A DNA stretch of 43,641 nucleotides from a virus. Shown piece by piece: positions 601-43,641 of the stretch; position 1 is the stretch's first letter, and each line of letters begins with the position of its first letter. The stretch covers positions 1 to 43,641 of the IMG/VR virus record IMGVR_UViG_3300029985_000071. The stretch is one strand, 5' to 3'. The notes below the pieces were generated by a model. The model ran no database searches and was not told the DNA's origin. It worked only from the letters and a program-made list of their open reading frames with translations. Both the position numbers and the translations under genes were made by a program.

Positions 601-638
601 AAATAAATTCCGTCGTTCGCAGAAAACAGGTTTATAAT
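600..638 (+). promoter_or_regulatory. Copy B of the 36-bp element with a TATAAT -10 box
   Basis: Bases 600-635 repeat copy A. The element ends in a TATAAT hexamer at 633-638, seven bases before the hairpin leader of the next gene. The expected -35 position (near 610-615) does not match TTGACA, so recognition may depend on the conserved ttccgtcgttcgcag block. Confidence 0.55.
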
Positions 639-664
639 GGTCTCAGTGCTTAGAAAGGAGCACT
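639..664 (+). promoter_or_regulatory. Hairpin 5' leader carrying the Shine-Dalgarno site
   Basis: AGTGCT (645-650) pairs with AGCACT (659-664) around the loop TAGAAAGG. The Shine-Dalgarno AAGGAG (655-660) lies in the loop and runs into the 3' arm, so folding would hide part of it. The same 20-base hairpin, with the same preceding TATAATG, occurs on the minus strand at 5185-5204. Confidence 0.65.
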
Positions 665-870: not shown

Positions 871-942
871 CCCAGCCGTTGGCGGTCTAAAGCCCGCATG
901 AGAAATGGGGATAGGGAGCGATTAGAAAGGATCGCCACCGCT

Positions 943-3111
943 ATGACGGAAGACCAGAAGATTGCTAAACGGGCGCAAGACGCTAAGCACAAACGTGAGA
1001 AGAGGGCTGCTGAGAAGGCCCAGAAGGCTCAGGCCATAGATTTGGTCGAGGCCACACAGAAGATTGTGGATGATGCTAATCCTGCTCGCGTGGGTGCCGC
1101 CCAGACTATCCTGGATATTGCGCCACGACCTTCTATTATCGATGGCATACCTGACGGTGTGGCGGTAGCTTCCCCCGAGGTCCACAGGGCCCTTTGGAAG
1201 GCCGGTTTCTCCTTCATCCGCACGGAGCAGGGCGCGAGCGGTTACTCCCACGCTGATGGCCGGGCTATTCTGATTCAAACTAACGGCGTCTGGGTGCTAC
1301 GCTTCTCCGATGGCACGCAAACGGGCGGTGCTTCTCAAGACTCTCTGCTGGAATTGCTAGCTAAGACGAAGACGCCCAAGGCAGTCCGAGTGGAGGCGGC
1401 GCGGGCGCGCGGGCGACAGGGCGCGGCTTCTTCTGGAGAGAAGAAAGTTGCTAAGAAGGAGCCAGCCGTGCAGGCTCTGGACATTATTGCGAATGCTAAG
1501 GACGCGGCGGTCGCGCAGGTAGAAGCGCGTGTGATCGCGGCGGCTGAGGGCAGGCCGTTGAACGTCGTGCGCGCCGTGGAGATGTTAAAAGGAGTGACCG
1601 AGGGTCGGTTCGACGTCCAGAATCTTCGCGGTGACAAGCACTACAGCGACCGTATGGCTTTGCTGAGGGTGCTCTTCAACCGCGAGAAGGGCGGCGTCAA
1701 GGCGGCTGAGACGGGCATTACCAACGTGGTGCAGGCATTCTACAGTGCCCTTGGCCCGGTGGGCAGTTGCGCCGCCGCTAAGGCGGTTGACTTTGCCGAG
1801 CGGTGCACAGGCCTGCTAGTTGCCACTCATGCGGCGCAGCTACTGGCCGGCAAAGCGGCGAGGAAGGCAGTCAAGGCCGTGCAGCGCCGCGTAGCCCCCT
1901 CCCTGGCCGTGCCAGGCACGATACTACCAGCGGTGAAGCCGCTGGGCCACAAGGCGCAGCGGGAGGCTGACGACGTCGTGCGCCGTGAGGTTTACGTCGA
2001 AGCCTTAGATGTAGAACTTGAGGCCGTTCCCAAGCCGTTGCTGAGAAATCTGGACGTCATCTTGGCTAGAAACCTTCGCCTGCTAGATCACCCTGGCGGC
2101 TTGGTAAGTCTGAAATTGGAACGGTGTAACAGCCAGGGATCTTTGCAGATATACGCCGTCAGCGGTCATCGTCTACACTGCGGAGTGATGCCGCAAATTT
2201 ATGAAGGCGGAAGCCGCCTATGCTGTGGGGTGCTGACGCCCGTGCTAGCCGTGGGAGTAAAGGCCCGGCCATACGACTTGGGTACTGTTCTTTCCCAAGT
2301 TGATGCATGGTTGACTGATGAGTATGAAAAAGATTCAGAAATGGAGGACACATTGAAGAAGGTTAAGACCGCTATTAAGCGCCAAACGGAACCTGTGAAG
2401 CTGGCTCCCGCGCCGTTCACGCCCGCCGCGCCACGCGAGGGCACGCCTGAGCCGCGCATTACGGCTGCTTCCGTGCGGCTGCTGGAAGACCCTCGCTTGG
2501 GAATTATTTTGATGCAATTGGAAAAAGAAAACTCGCAAGGCGCGATTTGCGTTTATAATAATAGTAGCAGGGTAAGTGTGGGCGTAGTCCCGCCAGAGAT
2601 CTTGAAAACATTGCGGCCGGTACCAGGTGAGGTTGACTTGGTGAAAGCTGCCAACCAGTTGCTGAACCCCGTGGTTCCATCCGTTCCAGTGACGCCCGTA
2701 GCCGTGGGCTACTTAACCGCAGTTCTGCACTGCAAGGAGATTGCTACTATGTCCAAGAAGTTTGAAGCACCTGTTCAAGACACACCGAAGTCGCGCAAGT
2801 TTGCCAGCACCAAGTCCGAGAAGCCCGCCAAAGCTGCCAAGGTTGAAAAAGCTGAGAAGGCACCATCGGCAGGACGCAAGCCCGCAATCCCGGACACCGC
2901 GAAGATCACCATTCTCACCGAGAAGAAGGCCAATCCTTACCGCGAGGGCAGCAAGGCCTACGTCACGTTCGATCTGCTCAAGCAGAGCAAGACGGCAGGT
3001 GCGTTCCGTGAAGCGGCTAAGGCCGATCCGGAAAAGTACGATATAACGTACTTGACGTGGACCACCGTTGAGCACGGCAAGCAGCCGGCATATGTTTCGC
3101 TGGCGTACTAA
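943..3111 (+). CDS. Large unrecognised phage protein with an internal domain duplication
   Basis: A 722-residue frame. I chose ATG 943 because GAAAGG lies 12 bases upstream; ATG 898 is in frame but has no ribosome binding site. The N-terminus is a charged Lys/Ala/Glu helix. Two related segments follow: bases about 2062-2208 (RNLRLLDHPGGLVSLKLER, N-S-Q-G, C-G-V-M-P) and about 2464-2610 (SVRLLEDPRLGIILMQLEKE, N-S-Q-G, V-G-V-V-P). They align along some 45 residues and look like a duplicated domain. The last 120 residues match the separate small protein at 4718-5179 and may also be made alone from an internal start. I recognise no enzymatic motif. It is followed by a strong terminator. The middle third is rich in Ala/Lys/Arg. 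Confidence 0.6.
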   Translation: MTEDQKIAKRAQDAKHKREKRAAEKAQKAQAIDLVEATQKIVDDANPARVGAAQTILDIAPRPSIIDGIPDGVAVASPEVHRALWKAGFSFIRTEQGASGYSHADGRAILIQTNGVWVLRFSDGTQTGGASQDSLLELLAKTKTPKAVRVEAARARGRQGAASSGEKKVAKKEPAVQALDIIANAKDAAVAQVEARVIAAAEGRPLNVVRAVEMLKGVTEGRFDVQNLRGDKHYSDRMALLRVLFNREKGGVKAAETGITNVVQAFYSALGPVGSCAAAKAVDFAERCTGLLVATHAAQLLAGKAARKAVKAVQRRVAPSLAVPGTILPAVKPLGHKAQREADDVVRREVYVEALDVELEAVPKPLLRNLDVILARNLRLLDHPGGLVSLKLERCNSQGSLQIYAVSGHRLHCGVMPQIYEGGSRLCCGVLTPVLAVGVKARPYDLGTVLSQVDAWLTDEYEKDSEMEDTLKKVKTAIKRQTEPVKLAPAPFTPAAPREGTPEPRITAASVRLLEDPRLGIILMQLEKENSQGAICVYNNSSRVSVGVVPPEILKTLRPVPGEVDLVKAANQLLNPVVPSVPVTPVAVGYLTAVLHCKEIATMSKKFEAPVQDTPKSRKFASTKSEKPAKAAKVEKAEKAPSAGRKPAIPDTAKITILTEKKANPYREGSKAYVTFDLLKQSKTAGAFREAAKADPEKYDITYLTWTTVEHGKQPAYVSLAY
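2749..3111 (+). CDS. Probable nested gene: 120-aa basic protein with NPYR-G C-terminal domain
   Basis: Inside the large frame, AAGGAG at 2734-2739 lies nine bases before ATG 2749, a strong start signal. The product would begin MSKKFEAPVQ, have a Lys/Ala/Pro linker of about 40 residues, and end in a domain starting ITILTEKKANPYREG and closing YLTWTTVEHGKQPAYVSLAY. The protein at 4718-5179 has the same build: basic linker, then ITLLT-K-V-NPYRQG, F-E/D-L-L-K/R-x-S-K/R-T, A-x-F-R, YLTW, HGKQPAY. I recall similar small C-terminal domains in other phage proteins, possibly helix-turn-helix like. That this part exists as a free gene elsewhere in the window supports independent translation, or recent in-frame fusion to the upstream gene. 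Confidence 0.5.
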   Translation: MSKKFEAPVQDTPKSRKFASTKSEKPAKAAKVEKAEKAPSAGRKPAIPDTAKITILTEKKANPYREGSKAYVTFDLLKQSKTAGAFREAAKADPEKYDITYLTWTTVEHGKQPAYVSLAY

Positions 3112-3192: not shown

Positions 3193-3834
3193 ATGATATT
3201 CAAATTAGCCGGGACTTCCGGGTCAGGCAAGTCAAGCCTGTTTAGGGCGCTGCTGAAACTATGGGACTTCGAGCCTGTTCTTTGGGCTCCTGAAAAGCCT
3301 AAGATTAAAGAATACAGAGCTAAGGTGAAGCCTGGGCAGGCTTTGCACGGAACGTTCGATACCGTAGTAGTGCTGGGGGATTACCGCTCTCCTTGCGGTG
3401 GTATGGACGGGGTAATCCGTAAGGAAGATCGTTACAGCATGGTGGCTCAGTACGCGGGTAAGAAGTTCCGCAAAACCCTCGTTCTGTGTGAAGGCCTGCT
3501 CTTCGGAGGAGTGTACGGAATTACGGAGGGCCTGGGAGTTCTGAGTGAGACCACTAAGGATGGAGTGCCCTGGGTCTATGCGTTCATGGACACGCCCTTG
3601 GAAGTGTGTTTGGAGCGCTGCCGGCAGCGGCGCGCGGCGCGCGGCGTTACAGAGCCTATGAACCCGGCCAATACTACCAGCAAGCACCGTTCTGTCTACA
3701 TGGTTCGGCAGCGCGTGCTGAACCAGAAGAACCCCAACCAAAGAGTGTACGATGTAGACCACAAGTTGAAGCCGGAGACGGCGGCGCGCAAAGTAGTGAA
3801 GTTCTTGGAGGAGTATGCCCAGACTACGCACTAA
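3193..3834 (+). CDS. P-loop nucleotide-kinase-fold protein, probable kinase half of 5-hmdU DNA kinase
   Basis: A Walker A motif GTSGSGKS occupies residues 7-14. A hydrophobic strand ending in Asp (VYAFMDTP) followed by a Lys/Arg-rich helix with C-L-E-R-C-R-Q-R-R resembles the lid of nucleoside monophosphate kinases. AGGAAAGGAAG precedes the ATG. The stop overlaps the next gene by 20 bases. That next gene has the helical domain known from 5-hydroxymethyl-deoxyuridine DNA kinases, enzymes that phosphorylate 5-hmdU within DNA in phages such as M6, ViI and phiW-14. I infer that the two products act together. The alternative is an independent dNMP kinase. The P-loop is certain; the substrate is an inference from context. 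Confidence 0.75.
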   Translation: MIFKLAGTSGSGKSSLFRALLKLWDFEPVLWAPEKPKIKEYRAKVKPGQALHGTFDTVVVLGDYRSPCGGMDGVIRKEDRYSMVAQYAGKKFRKTLVLCEGLLFGGVYGITEGLGVLSETTKDGVPWVYAFMDTPLEVCLERCRQRRAARGVTEPMNPANTTSKHRSVYMVRQRVLNQKNPNQRVYDVDHKLKPETAARKVVKFLEEYAQTTH

Positions 3835-4663
3835 AGAGCTTTTTTACTGGATCAAAGAGCGCTACAGCATCTACCTAAAGCGCCAGGCCGGCAAACCCAA
3901 GCCGTGGACTAAGGATCCTATTCTGCAGCAATATCGGTTCTGCAATGTGTACCGGGAGCTAGACACAGTTACACAGTGGATAGCCACAAACTGGCGCGCC
4001 CCGCATCATGAAGATACTGATCTATGGTTTGCGATGTACGTAGCCAGAATTTTCAACAAGCCAGAAACGTTGCATGCCGTAGGATACCCTTCTCCATGGG
4101 GGACTGCCCGCCGCAGAGCCTTAGAAAATACTATTGCGGATAGGCGCGCGCAGGGCCTGACGGTGATGAATTCGGCATACATGGTGACTACCCACAAACA
4201 CAAAGCGCCCGTGGTAGGATTTTACTGTGATATTTTGGATGAAGCATGGGCGCAGCGTAAGCACGTCAGGCCGCGCGCTGGTGACACAATCCAAGAGTTT
4301 TATGAGCGTTTGTCATCTCTGCGAGGTCTGGCTAGTTTTATGAGCGGCCAGGTTATAGCAGATGTTAAGTACGTAGGTCCGTTGTTACAGGCCTCTGACT
4401 GGCGGACGTTTGCTGCGAGCGGCACGGGCAGTCGCCGTGGGCTGAACTGGGTGTTCGGAAGAGAGTTTGAAAAGGGATGGAAGGAAGCTGAGTGGTACGC
4501 GGCGCTCATGGAATTGAAGCCCAGCGTAGACAAGTTTTTGGAGAAGTGCTCCATGCCTCCTATGCACGCTCAAGATCTGCAGAATTGCCTGTGCGAATTA
4601 GGGAAAATGGTCAAAGTGCAGCAAGGATGGGGCCGCCCGAAGGCTCGGTATGTAGGAGTATAG
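3815..4663 (+). CDS. 5-hmdU DNA kinase helical-domain protein (formerly grouped with aGPT-pyrophosphorylases)
   Basis: Residues 34-50 read DPILQQYRFCNVYRELD, followed by T-V-T-Q-W-I-x-x-N-W-R. This is the signature I know from the helical domain of 5-hmdU DNA kinases and from the family first called alpha-glutamyl/putrescinyl thymine pyrophosphorylase (Iyer and colleagues). The protein has 282 residues and no P-loop, so ATP binding must come from the overlapping upstream protein. The start ATG lies right after GGAGGAGT and the reading frame differs from the upstream gene, so the two are separate polypeptides, probably translationally coupled. Expected role: recognition of 5-hmdU in DNA and its activation as a phosphoester for amino acid attachment. 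A hairpin follows the stop codon. Confidence 0.85.
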   Translation: MPRLRTKELFYWIKERYSIYLKRQAGKPKPWTKDPILQQYRFCNVYRELDTVTQWIATNWRAPHHEDTDLWFAMYVARIFNKPETLHAVGYPSPWGTARRRALENTIADRRAQGLTVMNSAYMVTTHKHKAPVVGFYCDILDEAWAQRKHVRPRAGDTIQEFYERLSSLRGLASFMSGQVIADVKYVGPLLQASDWRTFAASGTGSRRGLNWVFGREFEKGWKEAEWYAALMELKPSVDKFLEKCSMPPMHAQDLQNCLCELGKMVKVQQGWGRPKARYVGV

Positions 4664-4668
4664 ATGGA

Positions 4669-4696
4669 AAGCGCCCGAGTGACGGCTCAGGCGCTT
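4669..4696 (-). terminator. Hairpin between convergent genes
   Basis: aagcgcc (4669-4675) pairs with ggcgctt (4690-4696), with gag/ctc pairing further inside. On the minus strand the hairpin is followed by ttccatc, so it probably ends the small minus-strand gene; it may work weakly in the other direction. Confidence 0.5.
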
Positions 4697-4717
4697 AGTG
4701 GAAACTCAGTGACGTCT

Positions 4718-5179
4718 CTACTTGACTACGATGTATGCGGGCTGCTTACCATGAGGCTTGGTGGCCCAGGTCAGGTAGCTCGGGTCTACCGTGCCGGCAT
4801 GAGCCACCTTGATCCCCGCGCGGAAGGCAGCTACGGTGCGGCTCTTGCGAAGAAGTTCGAACGTCGCTTCAGCGGTAGTGCCTTGCCGGTACGGATTTAC
4901 TTTGGTGAGCAGCGTAATGCGGCGGTCGTCGGCCTTGGGCGCTACGGCCTTGGGCGCTACGGCCTTGGGCGCTACGGCCTTGGGCGCTACGGCCTTGGGC
5001 GCTACGGCCTTGGGCGCTACGGCCTTGGGCTCATTCGTCGACTGTGATTTACCTGCCTTCTCGGCGAGGCTTGCGAGATACAGCATAGTATCGACGGCGG
5101 CGGTGGTTTTCTTCTCAGCTCGGTATTCACGCATCTTCTTGGCTTTGGCGGCTTTCTGTTTAGTGGTGAGAGTCTTCAT
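4718..5179 (-). CDS. Basic 153-aa protein with KAVAP repeats and NPYR-G C-terminal domain
   Basis: The start is the ATG at 5179-5177, behind the AAGGAG hairpin leader; an upstream in-frame extension only reads through that leader. The N-terminus (KAAKAKKMREYRAEKK) is a basic helix that resembles the N-terminus of the large protein at 943. Then come six exact KAVAP units and a compact C-terminal domain (NPYRQG, F-E-L-L-R-K-S-R-T, YLTWATKPHGKQPAY) clearly paralogous to residues encoded at 2880-3108. The gene is the only minus-strand one in the left arm and is divergent from the PLP enzyme gene. A nucleic-acid-binding or regulatory role is possible from its charge, but is a guess. Confidence 0.7.
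   Translation of the reverse strand: MKTLTTKQKAAKAKKMREYRAEKKTTAAVDTMLYLASLAEKAGKSQSTNEPKAVAPKAVAPKAVAPKAVAPKAVAPKAVAPKADDRRITLLTKVNPYRQGTTAEATFELLRKSRTVAAFRAGIKVAHAGTVDPSYLTWATKPHGKQPAYIVVK
4931..5030 (-). repeat. Six perfect 15-bp tandem repeats plus a partial seventh
   Basis: On the plus strand the unit ggccttgggcgctac occurs at 4931-5020 without a single change, then ggccttgggc to 5030. It encodes K-A-V-A-P on the minus strand. Perfect identity at third codon positions points to recent slippage or expansion. Confidence 0.95.
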
Positions 5180-5183
5180 GTTT

Positions 5184-5252
5184 GAGTGCTCCTTTCTAAG
5201 CACTGAAATCATTATAACGTGAATTCATGAAAAGTAAAGGATTATTTCACGT
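5184..5252 (-). promoter_or_regulatory. Minus-strand promoter, hairpin leader and inverted repeat in the divergent region
   Basis: Minus strand: a TATAAT at 5216-5211 with TTTACT 16 bases upstream (4 of 6 matches to TTGACA), then the 20-base hairpin AGTGCTTAGAAAGGAGCACT (5204-5185) with the ribosome binding site, six bases before the ATG. The inverted repeat acgtgaa/ttcacgt (5217-5223 and 5246-5252) flanks the -35 region and lies 27 bases upstream of the divergent PLP gene, so it could be an operator acting on both genes. Confidence 0.6.
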
Positions 5253-5279
5253 TTTCAAAATTATTTTTAAGGAGGTATT

Positions 5280-6341
5280 GTGGACACGATTTTCAAGATT
5301 CTAAGTCTAGATCGGGCGCGCGTGAAGTGGGAGAAGTACCTACGCGCACTCACTCCTGTAGAGAAAATCGGCGATTGGTATTTCAAGCGTGAGGACAAGT
5401 TCGCTCCCCTTGGGTACGGAGGGGTGAACGGATCAAAGTTGCGACAATTGATCTGGCTCGTTAGCAAGGCTGCGCAAAACGGCGCGCACGGCGTAGTCGG
5501 AGGAGCCGTCAGTGGTTCGCCTCAGCATCTCATGCTTGCCGTGGTGGCTTCCCATTACGGCTTGCCGGCCATCACCGTGTGCGGTTCTGCGGATTGGACT
5601 AAGTACCCTATGCTGAAAATGGCGCGCGGGGCCGGGGCTACTTTGCATCTGAGCAAATGCGGGTACGCAAAAACTCTGGAACATGACGCCTTCAAATTGG
5701 CGAAGGAGAATGATTACTGGCCCTTGGAGACGAATATAACCCTTAGTGAGAAGAGGAACACTGATGAAGAAATATCGGCCTTCCATGCTCTGGGGGCTCA
5801 CCAGGTGGAGAACGTGCCTGGCGACGTAGAAACTTTGGTTATTGCGGCTGGGTCGTGTAATTCTGTAGTGTCAGTGCTATATGGCATTACGGCTTACCGC
5901 CCTAAGCATCTCAAGCGCGTAGTATTGATGGGCGTAGGCGCTCACGGGTCTATCGACCCAGAGTACGTGTACGATCGGTTGAGGCGTGTAGACCCCGGTT
6001 TGCCGGGCCAGTTCCGGCCGCACTTTCTGCAGGATCCTAGTAGGGAGCCTGCAGGAAACTATCGTAAGGCGGCATACGATCTCTATCATGTGAACGTAAA
6101 TCATGGCTGCGGAGTAGGGGCGTGCTGCGCGGGCGGCTACTGCGTTTATAATGACCTTATGCCGTATAATTATCACGGGGTGGAATTTCATCCTAGGTAT
6201 GAAGGGAAAGTGTTTTCTTTTATGCGTGATCACCCTGCTCTGATGAAGAAAGCGCTAGGACGCGTCCCTAAGCTGTTCTGGGTGATAGGCTCGGAGCCGA
6301 AAGAAGACGCGATGCGCCCGTTTTATAGGAGGGGCAAGTGA
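5280..6341 (+). CDS. PLP-dependent enzyme of the ACC deaminase/D-cysteine desulfhydrase type, probable hypermodification tailoring enzyme
   Basis: GTG start at 5280 behind AAGGAGG. Residues 35-57 (F-K-R-E-D-K-F, then G-V-N-G-S-K-L-R-Q-L) match the start of the ACC deaminase-like fold type II family, where Lys53 of N-G-S-K would bind PLP. G-S-P-Q-H-L-M-L-A-V-V-A-S-H-Y-G-L matches the conserved Q/N-H helix, and A-A-G-S-C-N-S-V-V-S-V-L-Y-G takes the place of the Gly-rich phosphate loop. The C-terminal part has an unusual Cys cluster (CGVGACCAGGYC). PLP enzymes occur in phage thymidine hypermodification clusters, where they decarboxylate or otherwise trim the attached amino acid. Most members of this fold catalyse beta- or gamma-elimination or deamination, so the reaction here is open. 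It overlaps the following gene by four bases. Confidence 0.8.
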   Translation: MDTIFKILSLDRARVKWEKYLRALTPVEKIGDWYFKREDKFAPLGYGGVNGSKLRQLIWLVSKAAQNGAHGVVGGAVSGSPQHLMLAVVASHYGLPAITVCGSADWTKYPMLKMARGAGATLHLSKCGYAKTLEHDAFKLAKENDYWPLETNITLSEKRNTDEEISAFHALGAHQVENVPGDVETLVIAAGSCNSVVSVLYGITAYRPKHLKRVVLMGVGAHGSIDPEYVYDRLRRVDPGLPGQFRPHFLQDPSREPAGNYRKAAYDLYHVNVNHGCGVGACCAGGYCVYNDLMPYNYHGVEFHPRYEGKVFSFMRDHPALMKKALGRVPKLFWVIGSEPKEDAMRPFYRRGK

Positions 6342-6958
6342 AGGCGCAGCCAGTAGGTACTGTGCGCTACAAGACTGACGGTAGAGCGTATGTTAAAACT
6401 GTAAATCATCAGGCTTTCGGAACAACCTGGGTTCCTCGCGCACATCTTGTCTGGTGGAAGTGGCGAAGACAGACAGTGCCCGAAGGCTGGTGTCTTCATC
6501 ACAAAGACATGAACCCAGCTCGTGATGTTATGAGCAATTTACGCCTCATGTTAGGCACAGAGCATACGCGCCTCCATAAGACTGGCTCTACGCATTCAGC
6601 AGAAGCCCGGGAAAAAGTTAGTAGAGCTAACACAGGCCGGGTAGTTTCTGAAGAAACAAGGACAAAGATGCGCTTAGCTCTTACAGGCCGAGTAGTTCCT
6701 GAAAACGAACGCTTGAAAATGAGCTTGGCGCAGATGGGTAACACAAACGCGCTAGGACATACTGTGTCTGCAGAAGCGCGCCGCAAAATAAGTCAGGCTC
6801 AGCTGGGGAATAAAAGATGGTTGGGGCGGGCGCATACCGAGGCAACTCGCGCGGCGATGAGCGTAAGTAGACAAGGTAAGCCCTGGTCCGATAACCGCCG
6901 AGCATCCTACGAACTTAGCAAGAAGAAAGGTAAATTATGCCCACGACTGACGGATTGA
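6338..6958 (+). CDS. HNH homing endonuclease with NUMOD3-type repeats
   Basis: GTG start overlapping the upstream TGA (GTGA) behind AGGAGGGG. Residues about 50-80 hold VPEGWCLHHKDMNPARD, S-N-L-R-L-M, T-R-L-H, a typical HNH pattern with the His pair and Asn. The C-terminal half has four or five imperfect repeats of the form S-x-E-x-R-x-K-[IM]-S-x-A-x-x-G, the NUMOD3 DNA-binding motif of intron- and phage-borne homing endonucleases. It sits between two modification genes that would otherwise be adjacent, and its end overlaps the next gene by 22 bases. It probably spreads by cutting alleles that lack it. A host-directed nuclease role is less likely. Confidence 0.85.
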   Translation: MKAQPVGTVRYKTDGRAYVKTVNHQAFGTTWVPRAHLVWWKWRRQTVPEGWCLHHKDMNPARDVMSNLRLMLGTEHTRLHKTGSTHSAEAREKVSRANTGRVVSEETRTKMRLALTGRVVPENERLKMSLAQMGNTNALGHTVSAEARRKISQAQLGNKRWLGRAHTEATRAAMSVSRQGKPWSDNRRASYELSKKKGKLCPRLTD

Positions 6959-8103
6959 ATTATTACCCCGCAGCTGGACGTGCCTCGTTGGGTCGGTATT
7001 GCACATTGGAAGGCATGTCAGAGGTAAAGGCGCTCAAAGCGGGCATGGACTTCCGCGAACCGCAGTACCGCAGAGAAGTGTTCTTGCGATTTTATGAGTT
7101 CCACTTACGTCACAGGGCGCACCCCGGTGGAGTGTACTTTCTATTCCCGTACTTTTTTGAAAAGTACAAGATGACAGATGAACAGCGACTGTGGTTCTGC
7201 TTTGTAAATGGAAATTCACAGCATCCGCCAACTACGCTGTCTATTTACCGGCGCTTCCCTGACTTCTCTAAGTTGAACGTGGATAAACTGGACAAGTGGT
7301 TTAATGAGGAGTTCACCCGCCTTGGATGGGATACGGACAGGCGGCATCATAAGAGCCTTTTCATTCAATCTGTGAAATGCTACAAGGCTCTGTGTGGTAA
7401 ATCCCAAGGAAATTACTTTAGGAAAGTCATGGGGAAGGGCGCGGACGAAGGAGCGGCGTTCCGTAGCCTGTGGGCAGAGATACGATCTAAGTTCTTTACG
7501 TTCGGTAGACTGAGCACTTTTTCGTATATGGAGTATTTACGTCTCGCCGGACTGCCGCTAGATTGTGATCAGCTGTTCCTGGAGGATTTAGAAGGGTCCA
7601 AGTCTCATCGTAACGGCCTGGCTAAGGTTCTTGGCAGGGACGACCTAGACTGGAGAAAGGATTACGACTTTGATGGAAAGTACGCGCCGGGCCAGATAGA
7701 ATGGCTGAAGGAAGAAGGCACGACCCTGCTGGCCGAGTCTAAGAAGCGATTCAAAGGTGAGCCCTTCTTCAAGGACGTATCTTTCTTTACTCTCGAGAGC
7801 ACTTTCTGCACTTTTAAAAGTTGGCACAGAAAATCTCGTAGGTATCCTGGAGTATATTTGGATATGTTACATCGTAGACTCCAGCTTGCCGAGAAAGCCC
7901 TCCCCAACGAGGACTACTCTGTGTTTTGGGAAGCGAGGAAGGCGTGCTTACCCGCTTACCTGCGCCTGGAAGATACTCCGAATGATCCTGGTATGTGCGT
8001 TGAAAAGCAGAATCACTACCGCACCACCGGAGAGGTTATAATGATGAGCAGGGAATGGCCCTGCTTCAAAAATGCGTTTGATGACAAGATATGGAGGAAG
8101 TAG
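6937..8103 (+). CDS. Amino acid:DNA transferase (AADT, formerly aGPT-Pplase2), thymidine hypermodification
   Basis: A 388-residue protein. The segment M-D-F-R-E-P-Q-Y-R-R-E-V-F-L-R-F-Y (37-53), the following F-H-L-R-H-R-A-H-P-G-G-V-Y-F-L-F-P (55-71), N-G-N-S-Q-H-P (91-97) and L-D-K-W-F resemble the family I know as amino acid:DNA transferase. In phages M6 and ViI it joins glycine or serine to the activated 5-hmdU base in DNA. This is the step that fixes the identity of the side chain. The start is behind GAAAGG and overlaps the HNH gene end; the stop overlaps the next start by one base. The family call is recollection of sequence patterns plus strong context (hmdU kinase, PLP enzyme and hydroxymethylase in the same operon). 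Which amino acid is used cannot be read from the sequence. Confidence 0.8.
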   Translation: MPTTDGLNYYPAAGRASLGRYCTLEGMSEVKALKAGMDFREPQYRREVFLRFYEFHLRHRAHPGGVYFLFPYFFEKYKMTDEQRLWFCFVNGNSQHPPTTLSIYRRFPDFSKLNVDKLDKWFNEEFTRLGWDTDRRHHKSLFIQSVKCYKALCGKSQGNYFRKVMGKGADEGAAFRSLWAEIRSKFFTFGRLSTFSYMEYLRLAGLPLDCDQLFLEDLEGSKSHRNGLAKVLGRDDLDWRKDYDFDGKYAPGQIEWLKEEGTTLLAESKKRFKGEPFFKDVSFFTLESTFCTFKSWHRKSRRYPGVYLDMLHRRLQLAEKALPNEDYSVFWEARKACLPAYLRLEDTPNDPGMCVEKQNHYRTTGEVIMMSREWPCFKNAFDDKIWRK

Positions 8104-8471
8104 TGGCTAGTGACATAGGATACCACACCCGTCTGTGGGGCAATGGTAGTAAGGTAGAAGGAGGCTGTTTCGGCGGGGCCTTTGACCTAGCCACTGTTAA
8201 CCGTCTCGTAAAGGCACACTTTACTGTGACAGTCAAACCGTCAGGGCATGCTGTATTTGTAGACCGAAAAGGCCGAGAGGTATCTCTGTACGTACGTGTA
8301 GATCCTGAAACTACGGACGCCGGTCGCGCGGTACTAGTTTATTACCGAAAGGTGGAAGAGTTAACCGCAAAGAAGGAAGAAGAGAAACGTGAGCACATTC
8401 AAGACCTAGTCGACTCTATGGATTCAGACGAGGCGATTAAAAGGTTGACGGGAGGAAGTAAGAATGTATAG
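8103..8471 (+). CDS. Unrecognised 122-aa protein in the modification operon
   Basis: I chose GTG 8103, which overlaps the upstream TAG and lies five bases after GGAGG; an ATG at 8091 is also in frame but has no clear site of its own. The protein has a beta-rich N-terminal part (G-G-C-F-G-G-A-F-D-L, V-K-A-H-F-T-V-T-V-K-P-S-G-H-A-V-F-V-D) and a charged helical end. No membrane segment or known motif. It overlaps the thymidylate synthase-like gene by eight bases, so it is co-translated with nucleotide genes, but I assign no function. Confidence 0.65.
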   Translation: MASDIGYHTRLWGNGSKVEGGCFGGAFDLATVNRLVKAHFTVTVKPSGHAVFVDRKGREVSLYVRVDPETTDAGRAVLVYYRKVEELTAKKEEEKREHIQDLVDSMDSDEAIKRLTGGSKNV

Positions 8472-9546
8472 TTTCAAAACAGACGACGTAAATGATGCCT
8501 TGTATCACGGTATCATGCACCTACTTCAGTGCGGAGTGGAAGAAACTAGCCGCAATGGGCGCGTACTGGTTGCGCCCGAGCCGGTCTGCACGGAGTACAC
8601 TAACCCGCGTAGCCGCGTGCTCTACAGTCCTACACGAGACGCAAATCCTTTCTTCCACGTGATGGAGGCGCTTTGGATTTTGTCTGGAAGTAATGACGTC
8701 GAGTTCACCAGTTACTTTGCCAAGAATATGCTGAACTATTCTGACGACGGAAAAACTAGCTGGGGTGCTTACGGCTGGCGCCTGCGGTCTTTCTTCGGGT
8801 ACGATCAGATAGATGCGGTGATCGAAGAATTGAAGACCAATTCTGAGTCTAGGCGCTGCGTGCTAGGCATGTGGAATGCGGCAGATAATCCTGCACTTCC
8901 TCAGTGGCTCAAGTGGTGCAGGAACAGTAGCGCTGATATGATAGTGGCTATTAACGGCGGAAAAGATGTCCCTTGTAACACGCAGATCTACGTAGACGCG
9001 CGCGGGGGCCGCCTCAACATCACGGTGACTAACCGCAGCAACGACATTATCTGGGGCTGCTACGGCGCGAACGCCGTCCACTTCAGTTTCTTACAAGAAT
9101 ATCTTGCGATGAGAGTGGGAATTCTAGCAGGTGTCTACCGTCAGTTCTCAAATAACTTTCATTGCTACCTAGATAAGTTCAGCCGTGAGAAGCTGAAACA
9201 AATTGCTCAAGAAAGCGACACACTGGGCAAGTTGCCTGATACCGGCCCGGCCTTAGAGCCTGGCTTCGATGATGACTTGGCACTGTTCATGCCTTGGGCG
9301 CGCGCGTTGATACGCCATGAGTCTAATGTAATACCGAGCCATGGGAGTGCGGAGCCAGGCGCTTTGGAATTGGAAATTCCTACTTTGAAGACCCGCTTTA
9401 TGGCTGACGTCGCAGTGCCGATGTTCCTGGCCTGGTATTACCGCAAGCAGCATGACGAATTCAGCATGAATGTTTGCCTGGACGGCATCGATGCGCCGGA
9501 CTGGCAGCGCGCGTGCCAAGAGTGGGTAGACAGGAGGAAGAAATGA
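8464..9546 (+). CDS. Thymidylate synthase-family enzyme, probable dUMP hydroxymethylase
   Basis: A 360-residue member of the thymidylate synthase/hydroxymethylase fold. Visible family residues: Glu68 in E-A-L-W-I-L-S-G, the Arg130-Arg131 pair, the catalytic Cys171 in D-V-P-C-N-T, and R-S-N-D (191-194) followed by W-G-C-Y-G-A-N-A-V-H (Asn203), where classical thymidylate synthases have L-G-L-P-F-N. The altered D-to-N spacing is a form I associate with phage members of the family. Phages with modified thymine use such an enzyme to make 5-hydroxymethyl-dUMP; a plain thymidylate synthase would not feed the 5-hmdU kinase next door. The choice between the two is therefore by context. SD GGAGG; the stop overlaps the next start (ATGA). 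Confidence 0.8.
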   Translation: MYSFKTDDVNDALYHGIMHLLQCGVEETSRNGRVLVAPEPVCTEYTNPRSRVLYSPTRDANPFFHVMEALWILSGSNDVEFTSYFAKNMLNYSDDGKTSWGAYGWRLRSFFGYDQIDAVIEELKTNSESRRCVLGMWNAADNPALPQWLKWCRNSSADMIVAINGGKDVPCNTQIYVDARGGRLNITVTNRSNDIIWGCYGANAVHFSFLQEYLAMRVGILAGVYRQFSNNFHCYLDKFSREKLKQIAQESDTLGKLPDTGPALEPGFDDDLALFMPWARALIRHESNVIPSHGSAEPGALELEIPTLKTRFMADVAVPMFLAWYYRKQHDEFSMNVCLDGIDAPDWQRACQEWVDRRKK

Positions 9547-10127
9547 CACCTACTATCAAAGACAAACTGCAATTCATTCAGGAGGGCGGCGCGGTGCAGC
9601 GCTTCCACGTGCGCCCGGGAGTGACCGTGAACACTGACGCTGAGCATAGCTGGGGTGTAGCGATGCTCTGCTGCTTGCTCAGTTCAGCGCCCGGTCCTTC
9701 AGCTACTCTACTCTTAGCCGCGCTTACGCACGATCTGGGGGAGCAGTACGTAGGTGACACGCCTGCCCCAGCTAAATGGGCCAGCGGTACTGCTGAGGCC
9801 CTGGAGAAGGCTGAGAACGACGTGCTCGCCCATTACGAGCTGAGCTTCCAGCCTTACCTGAGCAAATATGAGCTGCGTCTGCTGAAGATGGCGGATGCTC
9901 TAGACGGTATGCTGCATTGTTGCCGTGAGGCCGCTCTGGGTAATCGCACGGTGAGCCCGATTTACTACAAGTGGAATCAGCGCGTGAACGACGGTTTGGT
10001 ATTCGCGCCGTACACAGAGCACGAACTTGGCGTGATTAGCGCCATAGCAGAAATATGGGAGGAAAGCAATGGCATCCGCGGACCGCAGTTCGACGTATAC
10101 GCGCAAATCAAAGAAAGCAGAACGTAG
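9543..10127 (+). CDS. HD-domain 5'-deoxynucleotidase, YfbR-like
   Basis: The start at 9543 overlaps the upstream TGA and follows AGGAGGAAG; a longer in-frame start at 9474 is buried in the upstream gene. The HD-domain metal ligands are visible: His35 (A-E-H-S-W), His63-Asp64 (T-H-D) and Asp118 (M-A-D-A-L-D-G). The segment HDLGEQYVGDTPAPAKW closely follows the E. coli YfbR stretch that ends G-D-L-P-T-P-V-K. YfbR removes the phosphate from dNMPs. In a phage that replaces thymine by 5-hmdU, such an enzyme could lower dTMP so that hmdUTP is incorporated; that role is inference. Length (194 aa) is normal for the family. Confidence 0.85.
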   Translation: MTPTIKDKLQFIQEGGAVQRFHVRPGVTVNTDAEHSWGVAMLCCLLSSAPGPSATLLLAALTHDLGEQYVGDTPAPAKWASGTAEALEKAENDVLAHYELSFQPYLSKYELRLLKMADALDGMLHCCREAALGNRTVSPIYYKWNQRVNDGLVFAPYTEHELGVISAIAEIWEESNGIRGPQFDVYAQIKESRT

Positions 10128-10392
10128 TCAGGCTCTGGCTGCTTTGTTGCAAACGCCCAGCGTAATTGAATCGGCTAACGCGCGCCAGGTGGGCGGATCT
10201 CACTATAGCGCACATGGGCGGCCTGATCTGCAACACTGGGATGTGGTAGATATTTTCAATCTGGACTACTTCCAGGGGAACATCACAAAGTACGTATTTA
10301 GATGGAGGGACAAGAACGGCGTAGAGGACTTAATCAAGGCCCGGCATTACTTGGACAAGTACATTGAGATTCAGCAGCAAAAGAAGGCATAG
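10069..10392 (+). CDS. DUF3310-family phage protein
   Basis: The last 70 residues (V-G-G-S-H-Y, L-Q-H-W-D-V-V, G-N-I-T-K-Y-V-F-R-W-R-D-K-N-G, D-L-I-K-A-R-H-Y-L-D-K-Y-I) are a textbook DUF3310 domain, common in phage nucleotide metabolism regions and sometimes labelled nucleotide kinase without a P-loop. The first 35 residues are a basic, low-complexity extension. The gene overlaps the nucleotidase by 59 bases in another frame, with GGAGG before the ATG. It is the last gene of the plus-strand operon. Function of the family is not established. Confidence 0.85.
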   Translation: MASADRSSTYTRKSKKAERSQALAALLQTPSVIESANARQVGGSHYSAHGRPDLQHWDVVDIFNLDYFQGNITKYVFRWRDKNGVEDLIKARHYLDKYIEIQQQKKA

Positions 10393-39979: not shown

Positions 39980-41983
39980 TTAGTTGATACGCCAGCACAC
40001 AGATGCAATATCGCCTGTCGCTACTGACGCGACGGACGAATAAGAATTGATTATGAATGATGTTCCAACTACGACTGTGCTTACCGTGGGAACACCTACT
40101 GCGGAACTTCCATTCCCGATGCAGCGCGTTAGTTGAATATTGCAGGTGGTTCCGTTTGGCGTGCAGGCAGCGGTAGTGCTCACGGTATAGGTTCCTGAAA
40201 CCAGCGTGACCATTCCAAACACAGGAGAATGAACTCCGCTATCTACGACATTTCCGTTAGCGTCATAACTGGCTAAGTCTCCGCTTGTTTTCGCCGCGCT
40301 GGTGGTTTCCTGCGCATATCCCCCAGTGCCCGTGCTGCCGCCCATGGCTGTACCGCTATTGATCGTAATACTGGTCACAGATGGCGCACTCGTGAAACTC
40401 GGAGCCCCTGCCGATCCTGTTGTATTTCCCAAGACACTATGGGCCACAGCTGACGGAGTTATCAACTGACTACTGGCATTACTCCCCAACACAGCCGAGG
40501 ATACCGGCACGGTTGCCCCATTTACCTGCGTGGTGTTTGCGTTGCCAAGCTGTCCTTCAAGCTGCCAATACGTCCCGTCAAAAGTTGCGCTAATCCAGTG
40601 TGAAGTCAATAAATCATTAGCGATCAGAGTTCCAGAGCCGCCCCACTTTTTGATGGTTGCCGCTGCTGCTCCGTTGACCGCCAGGGTTGACGATGCAGTG
40701 TTGGCGTACAGCGCCTCGAACTGGATATGATCGCCAGATGCTGGGGTGAATGTCGGGGCCGTCGTGCAGGTGTACGCCGTGGTGCTGGTGTTGGACTGTA
40801 CGCAGTTAGCCGGAAGACTTTCGTTATGGCTAGTAGCCGCAGTAATTTGTGAAGAAGAATTTGAGGACAGTACGGAAGCCGAAGCAGGAACGGAGGCTCC
40901 GTTGACCTGAGTAGCACTGGCGCACGCCCCATTCAATGCCGTGCACGCTCGCGATGGCCCTGTGGCGTTCTCGTTGACCATAAGGTTGCCAACGGTGGCA
41001 TCAGAGGAAATAACTACATTACCAGATGCCCCAGCGGTAGCAGTCCCCGCCGAAAAGGTAATGCCTTGAGTCGTACCTGAAATAGCAACAGGTCCAGTAA
41101 GCGTTGGTGAAGTGGATAGCACCGCGCTGCCCGTCCCTGTCGTGGCCGTTACAATCAACTGCGAAGAAGAGTTACTGCCGATAACCGTTGCACTGGCAGG
41201 AACGGAGGCTCCGTTGACCTGAGTAGCACTGGCGCACGCCCCATTCAATGCCGTGCACGCTCGCGATGGCCCTGTGGCGTTCTCGTTGACCATAAGGTTG
41301 CCAACGGTGGCATCAGAGGAAATAACTACATTACCAGATGCCCCAGCGGTAGCAGTCCCCGCCGAAAAGGTAATGCCTTGAGTCGTACCTGAAATAGCAA
41401 CAGGTCCAGTAAGCGTTGGTGAAGTGGATAGCACCGCGCTGCCCGTCCCTGTCGTGGCCGTTACAATCAACTGCGAAGAAGAGTTACTGCCGATAACCGT
41501 TGCACTGGCAGGAACGGAGGCTCCGTTGACCTGGACAACCGTCATTGCCAATGATCCAGCCGTATTCGTGGCGTCTCCGGTGTGCGCTGGCTCGGAGGTA
41601 GCGGGAAGTGTGGTCGTCCATACAGGAGATGCGCCGACCGTTCCGGTTCCGGTCTGGACTAGAATCCGGGGTGTGGTACTGGTATTCGGAGCGACCATTG
41701 CAGTCGTGCTGGGTGCGCTTTGAATCGGGAGGCTGCCAAGCACTCCTCCAGCCAAGCCGCTTGCGGTTCCGCTGCTACTAGGAGCCGTCAAAGTCCACAC
41801 ACCCTGTAGGCACTGATACAAACCCGGTGCGAGCCCGCCATTTACCTTAGTAATGGAAACAGGCTCTGAGCAGGGGCCTACCGGCGCAGTACTCAATACC
41901 CTGATATTCTCAAAATTAGCCTGCGCCAGGCAGATAGACGAAGCTATGACAAACCCAAATAAAATCTCTACAAATCGTTTCAT
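39980..41983 (-). CDS. Fibre-like repetitive protein with signal peptide
   Basis: ATG 41983 overlaps the portal stop (ATGA), with AGGAG upstream. The first 21 residues form a Sec signal (MKRFVEILFGFVIASSICLA then Q-A). The mature part is Ser/Thr/Gly/Ala-rich and beta-structured, with repeated T-Q-V-N-G-A-S-V-P-A-S-A-x-V-I-G-S-N-S-S-S-Q and a perfect 104-residue duplication. Similar T-Q-V-N-G-A blocks are known to me from fibre-like proteins of environmental phages and from bacterial exported proteins. It lacks a visible catalytic domain. Position between portal and beta-helix protein is unusual for a fibre gene. Confidence 0.65.
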   Translation of the reverse strand: MKRFVEILFGFVIASSICLAQANFENIRVLSTAPVGPCSEPVSITKVNGGLAPGLYQCLQGVWTLTAPSSSGTASGLAGGVLGSLPIQSAPSTTAMVAPNTSTTPRILVQTGTGTVGASPVWTTTLPATSEPAHTGDATNTAGSLAMTVVQVNGASVPASATVIGSNSSSQLIVTATTGTGSAVLSTSPTLTGPVAISGTTQGITFSAGTATAGASGNVVISSDATVGNLMVNENATGPSRACTALNGACASATQVNGASVPASATVIGSNSSSQLIVTATTGTGSAVLSTSPTLTGPVAISGTTQGITFSAGTATAGASGNVVISSDATVGNLMVNENATGPSRACTALNGACASATQVNGASVPASASVLSSNSSSQITAATSHNESLPANCVQSNTSTTAYTCTTAPTFTPASGDHIQFEALYANTASSTLAVNGAAAATIKKWGGSGTLIANDLLTSHWISATFDGTYWQLEGQLGNANTTQVNGATVPVSSAVLGSNASSQLITPSAVAHSVLGNTTGSAGAPSFTSAPSVTSITINSGTAMGGSTGTGGYAQETTSAAKTSGDLASYDANGNVVDSGVHSPVFGMVTLVSGTYTVSTTAACTPNGTTCNIQLTRCIGNGSSAVGVPTVSTVVVGTSFIINSYSSVASVATGDIASVCWRIN
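40885..41532 (-). repeat. Perfect 312-bp tandem duplication plus a 24-bp third start
   Basis: Bases 40885-41196 and 41197-41508 appear identical throughout when read side by side; 41509-41532 repeats the first 24 bases and then diverges. The unit is 104 codons, so the frame is kept. Confidence 0.9.
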
Positions 41984-43641
41984 CGCTTCACTGCTCCTGC
42001 GGGCCGAGTAAGATCGGCAGTGTTGATCCAATGTTTGAAGTCGTCAATCTGCATGGGCGTCACATCGCGGTAAACCAGACATGCTTTGTCATGGCCGATA
42101 TTGAAAGCCTTAACGGCGTCACCCAGCGAGTCATAACCAAAGAAGCATTTTGATTCGTCAAATTTCTGGCTATCAATTTGCTTCTGGTCAAAGACGTAAA
42201 TCCACTTAGACTCAGGGTTAGGCCCCACGGCGGCGTCTAGTGAATCACCATCCGCGCCCTGGTAGCCACGTATAAACCCGTAGTCGTATGGGAGGACGTT
42301 AGACCATCCCGGCCCGCTGCGTGTTTCGCCCTTGTGAGTCTCGATGACAACGGGAAGACCGTGGATGTTCAGTTCCTCAGCTTCAGGACCGTCAGCGTCC
42401 TTGGCCCCCGCCGAGTTCAACAAGGTTCTGTATTTAGAGATCTCACGTTCAGCCGCTACTACGTCACTTTGTTTGCCAAGTTCTTTTGCCGCCTCTGCCT
42501 CAGCCACCCAATAAAAGTAACCTTGTTCAGCGAGGTCGCGAATAATCCGATTCTGTACTACACGACTCTGTACTTTACCTTGAATAGGCTTGGTTGCCAA
42601 CTCGCGAATTTTCTCCGGGGTGTAGGGCTTAGTGTCCTGCGTACGCGCCTTCACTTGGTACGGAATAATCTCACCCGTCTCAAAATGAACCTGCACCGTA
42701 GGATTACCGAACAAGTCCTTTGTGCCTACTACGACCTCGCTCACCGTCAACCATTTTCCGTGAATATGGAGCCGGTCGCCGGGTTTAAGGCCCTCCGGGA
42801 CTTCATCATGAGCCTCTACAGCGCCCTTTGGCGGCGGTTTAAGGCCCTCTGGTGCTCCCGCCGCCTCCGCCGTGGGCGTTTCCCTATCCTTACGCTCCTC
42901 GGCCAGTGCGTGCAGGGCTTTATCCGGGGAACTGGACGGACTCAGCCCGCCTTCGCTTGCTCCGAATAAGTCCTCACCCATCTCGCCCTCTTGCTGCACC
43001 TTATCCGACAAAGCCTCAATGTTCTCATCCGTGATGTTGGTAAAGATGTCGGTCTTGGTACTGGACTGCTTCAACTCTTGGGCAAAGGTACGAATACTGA
43101 TGCCGCCCGCGTTCAACGCCACGACGCAGGTATCCACTACGGTCTTGGCTAACTCCGCCTTCTCTTTTTCATCTAGCACACGAATGGAGGGGAAGTTTAA
43201 GTTGAGGTCGTCAGGCACTTCGCCCAACTCGCTCATGCAGATTACTGGGTAAAGTTTCTCAAGTGCTGGCCGCAGCGTTACGTCAGACTCAGTAGAGATA
43301 GTCTCCTCGTAAATGCGCTCATCGCCGTCACCGGCTTGGCCTAGACCTGAGAAGGTTCGACCCCACAGCCGGGTGACGGGCATTTTAGCCGCGCCCGAAA
43401 CTCCCAGCTGCCACATCTGCATCATCTCGCCCAGACCCGCGAACGAGTACTGAGTTTGACTAAGTTCTCCCTCTTTGCCCAGCAAGACCAGACTTTGATT
43501 GTCTAGCATCTCGTTGAGTTTCTGCATGCGACGTTCAAAGTTCTGCGCGGTCTTCTGATTGACACCTAAGCCACTAAGCATCTGCTCAAGCTCAGGAACT
43601 CTCATACCCAGAATGTTAGCGCGATAAGTAAGACTCAGAGC
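41980..43641 (-). CDS. Phage portal protein (DUF1073-like, C-terminal part) fused to a pyrophosphatase-like domain; 5' end outside window
   Basis: The frame is open to the right edge. Upstream of the first ATG it continues as protein (A-L-S-L-T-Y-R-A-N-I-L-G), so the start is off the window. F-A-G-L-G-E-M-M-Q-M-W, V-S-G-A-A-K-M-P-V-T-R-L-W-G and D-E-R-I-Y-E-E-T-I match the DUF1073 portal end. After a Pro-rich linker come a small beta domain (P-G-D-R-L-H-I-H-G-K-W-L-T-V) and a helical segment, then a linker with A-K-D-A-D. The last domain has I-H-G-L-P-V-V-I-E-T, Y-D-Y-G-F-I-R-G-Y, G-A-D-G-D-S-L-D-A-A-V-G and K-W-I-Y-V-F-D-Q-K, resembling the InPase-like domain of phage polyvalent proteins. 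It sets the head-tail gateway; the extra domains may enter the cell. Confidence 0.75.
   Translation of the reverse strand, partial: ALSLTYRANILGMRVPELEQMLSGLGVNQKTAQNFERRMQKLNEMLDNQSLVLLGKEGELSQTQYSFAGLGEMMQMWQLGVSGAAKMPVTRLWGRTFSGLGQAGDGDERIYEETISTESDVTLRPALEKLYPVICMSELGEVPDDLNLNFPSIRVLDEKEKAELAKTVVDTCVVALNAGGISIRTFAQELKQSSTKTDIFTNITDENIEALSDKVQQEGEMGEDLFGASEGGLSPSSSPDKALHALAEERKDRETPTAEAAGAPEGLKPPPKGAVEAHDEVPEGLKPGDRLHIHGKWLTVSEVVVGTKDLFGNPTVQVHFETGEIIPYQVKARTQDTKPYTPEKIRELATKPIQGKVQSRVVQNRIIRDLAEQGYFYWVAEAEAAKELGKQSDVVAAEREISKYRTLLNSAGAKDADGPEAEELNIHGLPVVIETHKGETRSGPGWSNVLPYDYGFIRGYQGADGDSLDAAVGPNPESKWIYVFDQKQIDSQKFDESKCFFGYDSLGDAVKAFNIGHDKACLVYRDVTPMQIDDFKHWINTADLTRPAGAVKR

Follow-up and report, generated by a model that had tools for sequence, protein, structure and literature searches.

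A candidate ViI-type thymidine hypermodification cassette in an M6/PaMx11-type gene context of a metagenomic phage

Layout of the cassette

We analysed a 43,641-nt stretch of metagenomic viral DNA (the window; positions 1–43,641 of the IMG/VR virus record IMGVR_UViG_3300029985_000071). It represents part of a larger genome, which is probably near 100 kb in full; two long relatives of the phage measure 101–105 kb. Genes absent from the window may therefore be encoded outside it, and given this fragment status and the size of the relatives, completeness of the cassette cannot be claimed. Family profiles recovered the whole gene set that an earlier note on this DNA had named (kinase, HMUDK_hel, PLP enzyme, amino acid:DNA transferase, thymidylate synthase-family enzyme and nucleotidase), and these matches, as judged from sequence, are far beyond chance. 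All cassette reading frames are intact and keep their conserved catalytic residues, identically so in a second copy of the cassette, IMG/VR contig L008, which is identical to the window over 15,261 bp.

On its left the variable cassette is bordered by a plus-strand gene for a 737-aa protein (898–3111). This gene is followed on the same strand by a P-loop 5-hmdU DNA kinase (KIN, 3193–3834) with the Walker A motif GTSGSGKS, which matches phrog_800 (E 5.2e-15), also the family of ViI gp67 (6.6e-67) and YuA gp13 (7.2e-39), and scores below the cut-off against Pfam PF18748 (E 0.033). Next comes HEL (3815–4663, plus strand), a Pfam HMUDK_hel protein (PF18723, E 3.5e-46) of phrog_2396, the family of ViI orf00160, with 30–33% identity to YuA gp14. 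The KIN and HEL frames overlap by 20 nt; because of this overlap, and because YuA and PaMx11 show the same two-gene layout, we rejected a single frameshifted gene. In M6-like phage annotation HEL goes by the name aGPT-Pplase1.

The earlier description of the interval as one plus-strand operon had to be abandoned, since a minus-strand gene (4718–5212) with its own promoter-like element interrupts it between HEL and the PLP enzyme. This 33-nt promoter/RBS-like element lies at 5185–5217, with a −10 TATAAT at 5216–5211, and recurs at positions 632–664. The antisense gene contains 15-nt tandem repeats and encodes a conserved protein paralogous to the C-terminal part of the 737-aa protein (rep737-family profile, E 5.7e-15). 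The remaining genes lie on the plus strand: a PLP enzyme of fold type II (5280–6341), a free-standing HNH/NUMOD3 homing-type endonuclease (6338–6958; PF07460, E 5.5e-15, with further matches to phrog_314 and phrog_1891), the amino acid:DNA transferase (AADT, 6937–8103), a 126-aa reading frame (8091–8471) for which a Pfam/PHROG-type profile search gave no match above noise, a predicted thymidylate synthase (TS)-family pyrimidine hydroxymethylase (8464–9546), a YfbR-like HD 5′-deoxynucleotidase (9543–10,127) and a DUF3310 protein (10,069–10,392; PF11753, E 2e-7), which occupies the same relative place as its homologue YuA gp20. The endonuclease gene, which separates the PLP enzyme from the AADT, the 126-aa frame and the DUF3310 gene are additions to the set first named. 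The antisense, PLP and endonuclease genes make up a 2.27-kb block (4664–6936) that is missing at the same position in the nearest cassettes (L104, L105 and L106), which run KIN-HEL-AADT-TS-HD with HEL abutting the AADT and have no PLP enzyme.

Enzyme families and known systems

The TS-family enzyme matches phrog_5131 (E 9e-103), is 42% identical to YuA gp17, finds its best PDB match in the CMP 5-hydroxymethylase 5b6d and keeps residues C171, N203, H233 and Y235; it is predicted to convert dUMP to 5-hmdUMP. The nucleotidase (PF12917, E 7e-11) is 38% identical to its homologue YuA gp18, and its real start is likely 9543, where an ATG preceded by AGGAGG overlaps the TS stop. The protein at 3815 had been described as a 5-hmdU DNA kinase helical domain, of which the family assignment stands while the label probably misstates the role. 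Across 79 related loci, HEL is found with a hydroxymethylase in 70, a glycosyltransferase in 36 and a kinase in 19, the last two never in one locus. For that reason HEL is unlikely to function as part of the kinase; the pattern suggests that it commonly accompanies the hydroxymethylase irrespective of the decoration, in another role than its name implies.

The AADT belongs to Pfam ADDT (PF18724, E 7.4e-16) and to phrog_3271 (E 6.8e-77), as does ViI orf00247 (8.2e-233). HEL and the AADT thus both fall, by profile, inside the families first proposed for them, which supports the earlier interpretation of an amino-acid-derived thymine. The sole confident PDB fold for the AADT model (pLDDT 94.9) is the PaMx11 5-phosphomethyl-dU (5-PmdU) glycinyltransferase 8z2m/8z2n, which accounts for the top three Foldseek matches at a probability of 1.00 and a target-normalised TM of 0.6, with E values of just 0.02–0.07 and 14% identity over the fold match. 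Since hhalign of the two AADT families is weak (probability 4%, motif-level agreement only), their kinship is carried by the fold match. Scans of bacterial genomes gave no match with a single-protein query and two remote matches with the profile.

The PLP enzyme, whose gene is preceded by a strong ribosome-binding site, has no Pfam match; its assignment is borne out by phrog_3650 (E 1.4e-72), the family of ViI orf00226, and its identity to Ackermannviridae PLP enzymes is 34–40%. The best PDB folds for its model (pLDDT 94.1) are D-cysteine desulfhydrase and ACC deaminase, with the PLP lysine K53 and S80, Q82, Y307 and E308 mapping in the model to K51, S78, Q80, Y294 and E295 of ACC deaminase. 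Members of this family adjoin an AADT in 74 of 79 loci that were selected by the presence of the PLP enzyme; the two are fused in one reading frame in L017–L020, L081 and L096, and a kinase-PLP-AADT fusion occurs in L099.

In its enzyme families the window resembles Salmonella phage ViI (Vi01): its kinase, HEL, PLP enzyme and AADT share their PHROG families with the ViI proteins, a hydroxymethylase is present in both, and the published ViI gene list, like the window, is without a radical SAM gene. Protein identities are 27–38%, with the AADT at only 26–27%. The ViI genes, however, lie dispersed in a genome of 157 kb (orf66, 67, 160, 226 and 247) and include a second kinase, orf243, whose family (phrog_4409) gave no profile match in the window, itself a fragment. 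In contrast, the window set is compact within 7 kb, belongs to a ∼100-kb myophage lineage and has the HNH and antisense genes inside it.

In its gene order the window instead resembles the Pseudomonas phages YuA/M6, with kinase, HEL, hydroxymethylase, YfbR and DUF3310 genes running in one direction, though with extra genes inserted. The YuA/M6 cassette is of the 5-(2-aminoethyl)-dU (5-NedU) type and, unlike the window, has an AADT of phrog_6364, a PLP enzyme of phrog_7093 (PALP), a radical SAM enzyme and Nmad5. Pseudomonas phage PaMx11 shares the kinase-HEL-hydroxymethylase-HD order and the AADT fold, but its AADT sequence family differs and the window has a PLP enzyme in place of the FAD lyase and acetyltransferase. 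Profile searches of the window for radical SAM, FAD lyase, GNAT and Nmad5 gave no match, nor did PaMx11-seeded profiles for the FAD lyase and acetyltransferase of the 5-acetamidomethyl pathway. We rejected an M6-type product, since the PLP and AADT families differ and radical SAM was not found, and a PaMx11-type product, since the FAD and acetyltransferase genes were not found in the window.

The AADT is 44–55% identical to those of TET/JBP-ParB-AADT-kinase loci in mycobacteriophages (Hangman), in Rhodococcus phage Tonitrus and in numerous phages from metagenomes, where it often adjoins a PLP enzyme from the window enzyme's family. These loci presumably form the hydroxymethyl group in DNA by a TET/JBP oxygenase, whereas the window uses a dUMP-type hydroxymethylase with HEL and has no TET.

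Predicted pathway and product

Very probably the cassette adds an amino acid to thymine-like bases of the phage's own DNA and then trims it, as happens in phage ViI. Our best reading, which we regard as rather probable, pairs a thymidine hypermodification pathway of the ViI type with a gene context of the M6/PaMx11 type; we infer each reaction and the product from the observed families, gene order, residues, folds and cassette differences. The TS-family enzyme would make 5-hydroxymethyl-dUMP for incorporation into phage DNA, with the YfbR-like nucleotidase possibly reducing the pools of competing dNMPs. The P-loop kinase would phosphorylate 5-hmdU within DNA, the AADT would displace the phosphate with an amino acid and the PLP enzyme would decarboxylate the attached amino acid. 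Because a PLP enzyme working without a radical-SAM isomerase requires the alpha-amino group to be free, the amino acid would be joined via its side chain, and serine as substrate would give 5-(2-aminoethoxy)methyl-dU. The ViI-like phage PP35 has a dUMP hydroxymethyltransferase, two kinases, one PLP enzyme and two aGPT-PPlases, a set that the window matches except for one kinase (PMC6336734), and ViI DNA carries 5-(2-aminoethoxy)methyl-dU (5-NeOmdU; PMC11721090; PMC6449724). The earlier suggestion of an aminoethoxymethyl-type or new base, made from a PLP enzyme seen without radical SAM, flavin lyase or acetyltransferase, is strengthened by the placement of PLP enzyme and AADT in the ViI families (phrog_3650, phrog_3271) and outside the YuA/M6 families.

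The same pathway could possibly, if with clearly lower probability, use an amino acid other than serine, such as threonine, cysteine, homoserine or lysine, giving a thymine with an amine group that would differ from 5-NeOmdU and may not have been described before. In trees the AADT forms a clade with L104, L105, L107, L108 and L120, separate and far from ViI's, and the PLP enzyme branches with L025 and not with ViI; the closest AADT relatives lie in TET-oxygenase loci or in loci without a PLP enzyme, so the substrate may be a different amino acid. Both enzymes nevertheless remain within the ViI PHROG families, and we know of no specificity residues that would separate them from ViI's.

The PLP enzyme is a candidate decarboxylase of the base-linked amino acid, a role that rests on ViI-type precedent, for which the source is reportedly Lee et al. 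PLP enzymes of fold type II are associated more with elimination than with decarboxylation, and with the ACC deaminase residue set kept and lyases as closest folds, an ACC-deaminase- or D-cysteine-desulfhydrase-like elimination, or some other reaction, would leave a differently trimmed base. We consider this unlikely: ViI has a PLP enzyme from this family, and its final base is of the aminoethoxymethyl kind, equal to decarboxylated O-linked serine; beta-elimination of an O-linked serine adduct would only regenerate 5-hmdU. It is still less probable that the PLP gene arrived recently as a passenger in the 2.27-kb block and that the base is the untrimmed amino-acid adduct, the product expected of L104–L106, whose cassettes have no PLP enzyme. 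That layout, and the HNH gene adjoining the PLP gene, would fit such an arrival, but the active-site residues are all intact, the ribosome-binding site is strong and the family is tied to AADTs by adjacency and fusion. Finally, although the genome is fragmentary, we give hardly any credence to a non-functional cassette or a target other than DNA thymine, given intact frames, conserved catalytic residues, an identical second metagenome contig and the presence of both a 5-hmdU-type hydroxymethylase and a DNA-base kinase family.

Cassette differences among relatives

Relatives were searched by profile over full six-frame ORFs. In three long relatives of the same lineage (G005, G007 and G014), with major capsid identities of 76–78%, homologues of the 737-aa protein border the cassette, as they do in L104 and L105. 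The slot holds a glutaminase-AADT fusion with a GNAT acetyltransferase in G005 and sets of a TAGT glycosyltransferase plus a nucleotidyltransferase in G007 and G014; no radical SAM was found in these three. The slot is thus filled in close relatives by quite different DNA-decorating enzymes. We lean towards a ∼100-kb myophage lineage with a fixed HEL-TS-HD-DUF3310 core, alongside which whole decoration cassettes are swapped: amino acid plus PLP in the window, glutaminase-AADT plus acetyltransferase in G005, and glycosyltransferase plus nucleotidyltransferase in G007 and G014.

Thymine hypermodifications protect phage DNA against restriction enzymes, and if this exchange is real, close relatives would carry chemically unrelated thymine decorations. 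To our knowledge an ammonia-fed AADT decoration is undescribed, and the glutaminase-AADT fusion offers a concrete starting point towards a new base. The survey also suggests that HMUDK_hel, named after the 5-hmdU kinase, is tied instead to the hydroxymethylase. With an amino-acid branch of the ViI type set in an M6-like gene frame, and unrelated sets occupying this slot in near relatives, the idea of modular, exchangeable base chemistry becomes directly testable within one phage lineage.

Gene content and layout of the cassette

The window, a linear viral record of 43,641 bp and itself a fragment, carries every gene that the earlier note had named in a thymidine hypermodification operon proposed at 3193–10392: a P-loop kinase (3193–3834), the HMUDK_hel protein (HEL, PF18723; 3815–4663), a PLP enzyme (5280–6341), an amino acid:DNA transferase (AADT; 6937–8103), a thymidylate synthase (TS)-family enzyme (8464–9546) and a YfbR-like nucleotidase (9543–10127), the last followed by a DUF3310 gene. 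Overlooked there were a minus-strand gene (4718–5212) between the HEL and PLP genes, whose product is paralogous to the C-terminal part of the 898–3111 protein (profile E 5.7e-15), and an HNH/NUMOD3 gene (6338–6958) between the PLP and AADT genes. Since the minus-strand gene separates HEL from PLP, the PLP gene, with a strong Shine–Dalgarno sequence (AAGGAGGT) preceding its GTG start at 5280, probably heads a second transcript. A 33-nt element containing TATAAT, plus AAAGGAG ahead of a start codon, occurs in opposite orientation at 632–664 (+) and 5185–5217 (−) with 94% identity, and is likely a phage promoter/RBS unit. Because 15,261 bp of a second IMG/VR contig, L008, are identical to the window, the gene order is no assembly accident of a single record; the capsid region is matched at 100% in three further contigs. 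Tandem repeats of 18 nt (2–242) and 15 nt (4915–5049) are also present, the latter within the antisense gene and encoding a PKAVA repeat, and a portal protein fragment (41980–43641, −) bears an inorganic pyrophosphatase domain at its C-terminus (PF18823, E 3e-27).

Family placement and predicted product

The cassette holds ViI-type decoration genes within an M6-type frame, real and intact. Profile searches placed the proteins encoded from 3815 and 6937 in the families that the earlier note had named, and PHROG profiles group four of the proteins with their counterparts in Salmonella phage ViI: kinase, HEL, PLP and AADT fall in phrog_800, phrog_2396, phrog_3650 and phrog_3271, as do ViI gp67, orf160, orf226 and orf247. 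In Pseudomonas phage YuA, by contrast, the PLP and AADT proteins are phrog_7093 and phrog_6364. The gene order, however, is that of YuA gp13-14-17-18-20 and PaMx11_49-52. In the literature, M6-like phages are assigned two aGPT-PPlases together with a hydroxymethylase, a kinase, a PLP enzyme, Nmad5 and a radical SAM enzyme (PMC9476957). ViI-like phages are credited with two aGPT-PPlases and a single PLP enzyme in addition to a dUMP hydroxymethyltransferase and kinases (PMC6336734); all of this ViI list is found in the window, a fragment, except the second kinase.

The sole kind of confident PDB match to the AADT model (pLDDT 94.9) was the PaMx11 5-phosphomethyl-dU glycinyltransferase (8z2m, 8z2n; Foldseek probability 1.00, 14% identity, E 0.02–0.07). 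With weak statistics, DRRH, FG and E..C..YK/FKS motifs align between both AADT families, and the HEL C-terminus has a motif similar to that of AADT. The PLP model (pLDDT 94.1) matched D-cysteine desulfhydrase and ACC deaminase (E about 1e-11), and its K53, S80, Q82, Y307 and E308, invariant across 39 relatives, align to K51, S78, Q80, Y294 and E295 of ACC deaminase. The TS-family protein, whose best PDB match is CMP 5-hydroxymethylase, keeps C171, N203, H233 and Y235.

The proposed activities would run from hydroxymethylase to kinase, transferase and decarboxylase, PLP enzymes of this type in hypermodification reportedly acting as decarboxylases in one study. PLP aldimine formation requires a primary alpha-amine, which N-linked glycine does not have; because of this, and because PLP occurs without radical SAM, the amino acid would on chemical grounds be joined via its side chain. 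By analogy to ViI, whose DNA contains 5-(2-aminoethoxy)methyl-dU (PMC11721090, PMC6449724), the product is predicted to be a serine-derived aminoethoxymethyl base.

The role of HEL

Among the 79 HEL-selected loci (L171–L249), a hydroxymethylase occurs in 70, a TAGT glycosyltransferase in 36 and a kinase in 19, and TAGT and kinase never occur together (Fisher p 1.4e-6, which ignores relatedness, some loci being incomplete). These counts argue against a kinase-specific role despite the family name; 'HMUDK_hel' looks misleading, as does the earlier label of a 5-hmdU DNA kinase helical domain.

Exchange of the decoration genes

AADT adjoins PLP in 74 of 79 loci gathered by PLP profile; PLP adjoins AADT in 13 of 53 gathered via AADT, so AADT is frequently found without a PLP enzyme of this family. 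The two form a single ORF in L017–L020, L081 and L096, and in L099 (9122–12409) one 1,096-aa frame joins a ViI orf243-type kinase, PLP enzyme and AADT. AADT-kinase and TET-AADT fusions occur in TET/JBP-type loci (L062, L064, L077, L083), which suggests that the oxygenase route there supplies substrate to transferases of the same family. Profile searching of the bacterial genome collection yielded just two remote PLP-family relatives, L278 (an Actinomycetota MAG contig) and L279 (Parachryseolinea); one sits in a 32-kb MAG contig, which may be viral.

In the nearest cassettes (L104–L106; AADT 62–64% identical), HEL abuts AADT without the 2.27-kb antisense-PLP-HNH block. PLP could have been lost elsewhere rather than gained, but its acquisition by the window's lineage is the simplest reading. 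In quick trees, AADT (as the identical copy L008) groups with L104/L105 (SH-aLRT 92) among HEL/TS loci, and PLP pairs with L025 (99), apart from ViI.

The slot holding the decoration genes is exchanged among close relatives. Three long relatives reached via the capsid protein, G005 (105 kb), G007 (69 kb) and G014 (101 kb), have syntenic structural genes, a capsid protein 76–78% and a hydroxymethylase 59–65% identical to the window's, and common cassette flanks, a homologue of the 737-aa 898–3111 protein on one side and HEL-TS-nucleotidase-DUF3310 on the other. In place of kinase-PLP-AADT, G007 (L276:8073–10485, −) and G014 (L277:8034–10565, −) carry a TAGT glycosyltransferase, an uncharacterized protein and a sugar-type nucleotidyltransferase; kinase, AADT and PLP are absent throughout the available sequence of both. 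The G005 slot holds an AADT fused at its N-terminus to a class II glutamine amidotransferase domain (L275:10025–11905, −; PF13522, E 1e-9), adjoining a kinase and a GNAT acetyltransferase, and a 159-aa protein. This set is a candidate for making a base of the aminomethyl or acetamidomethyl type from ammonia.
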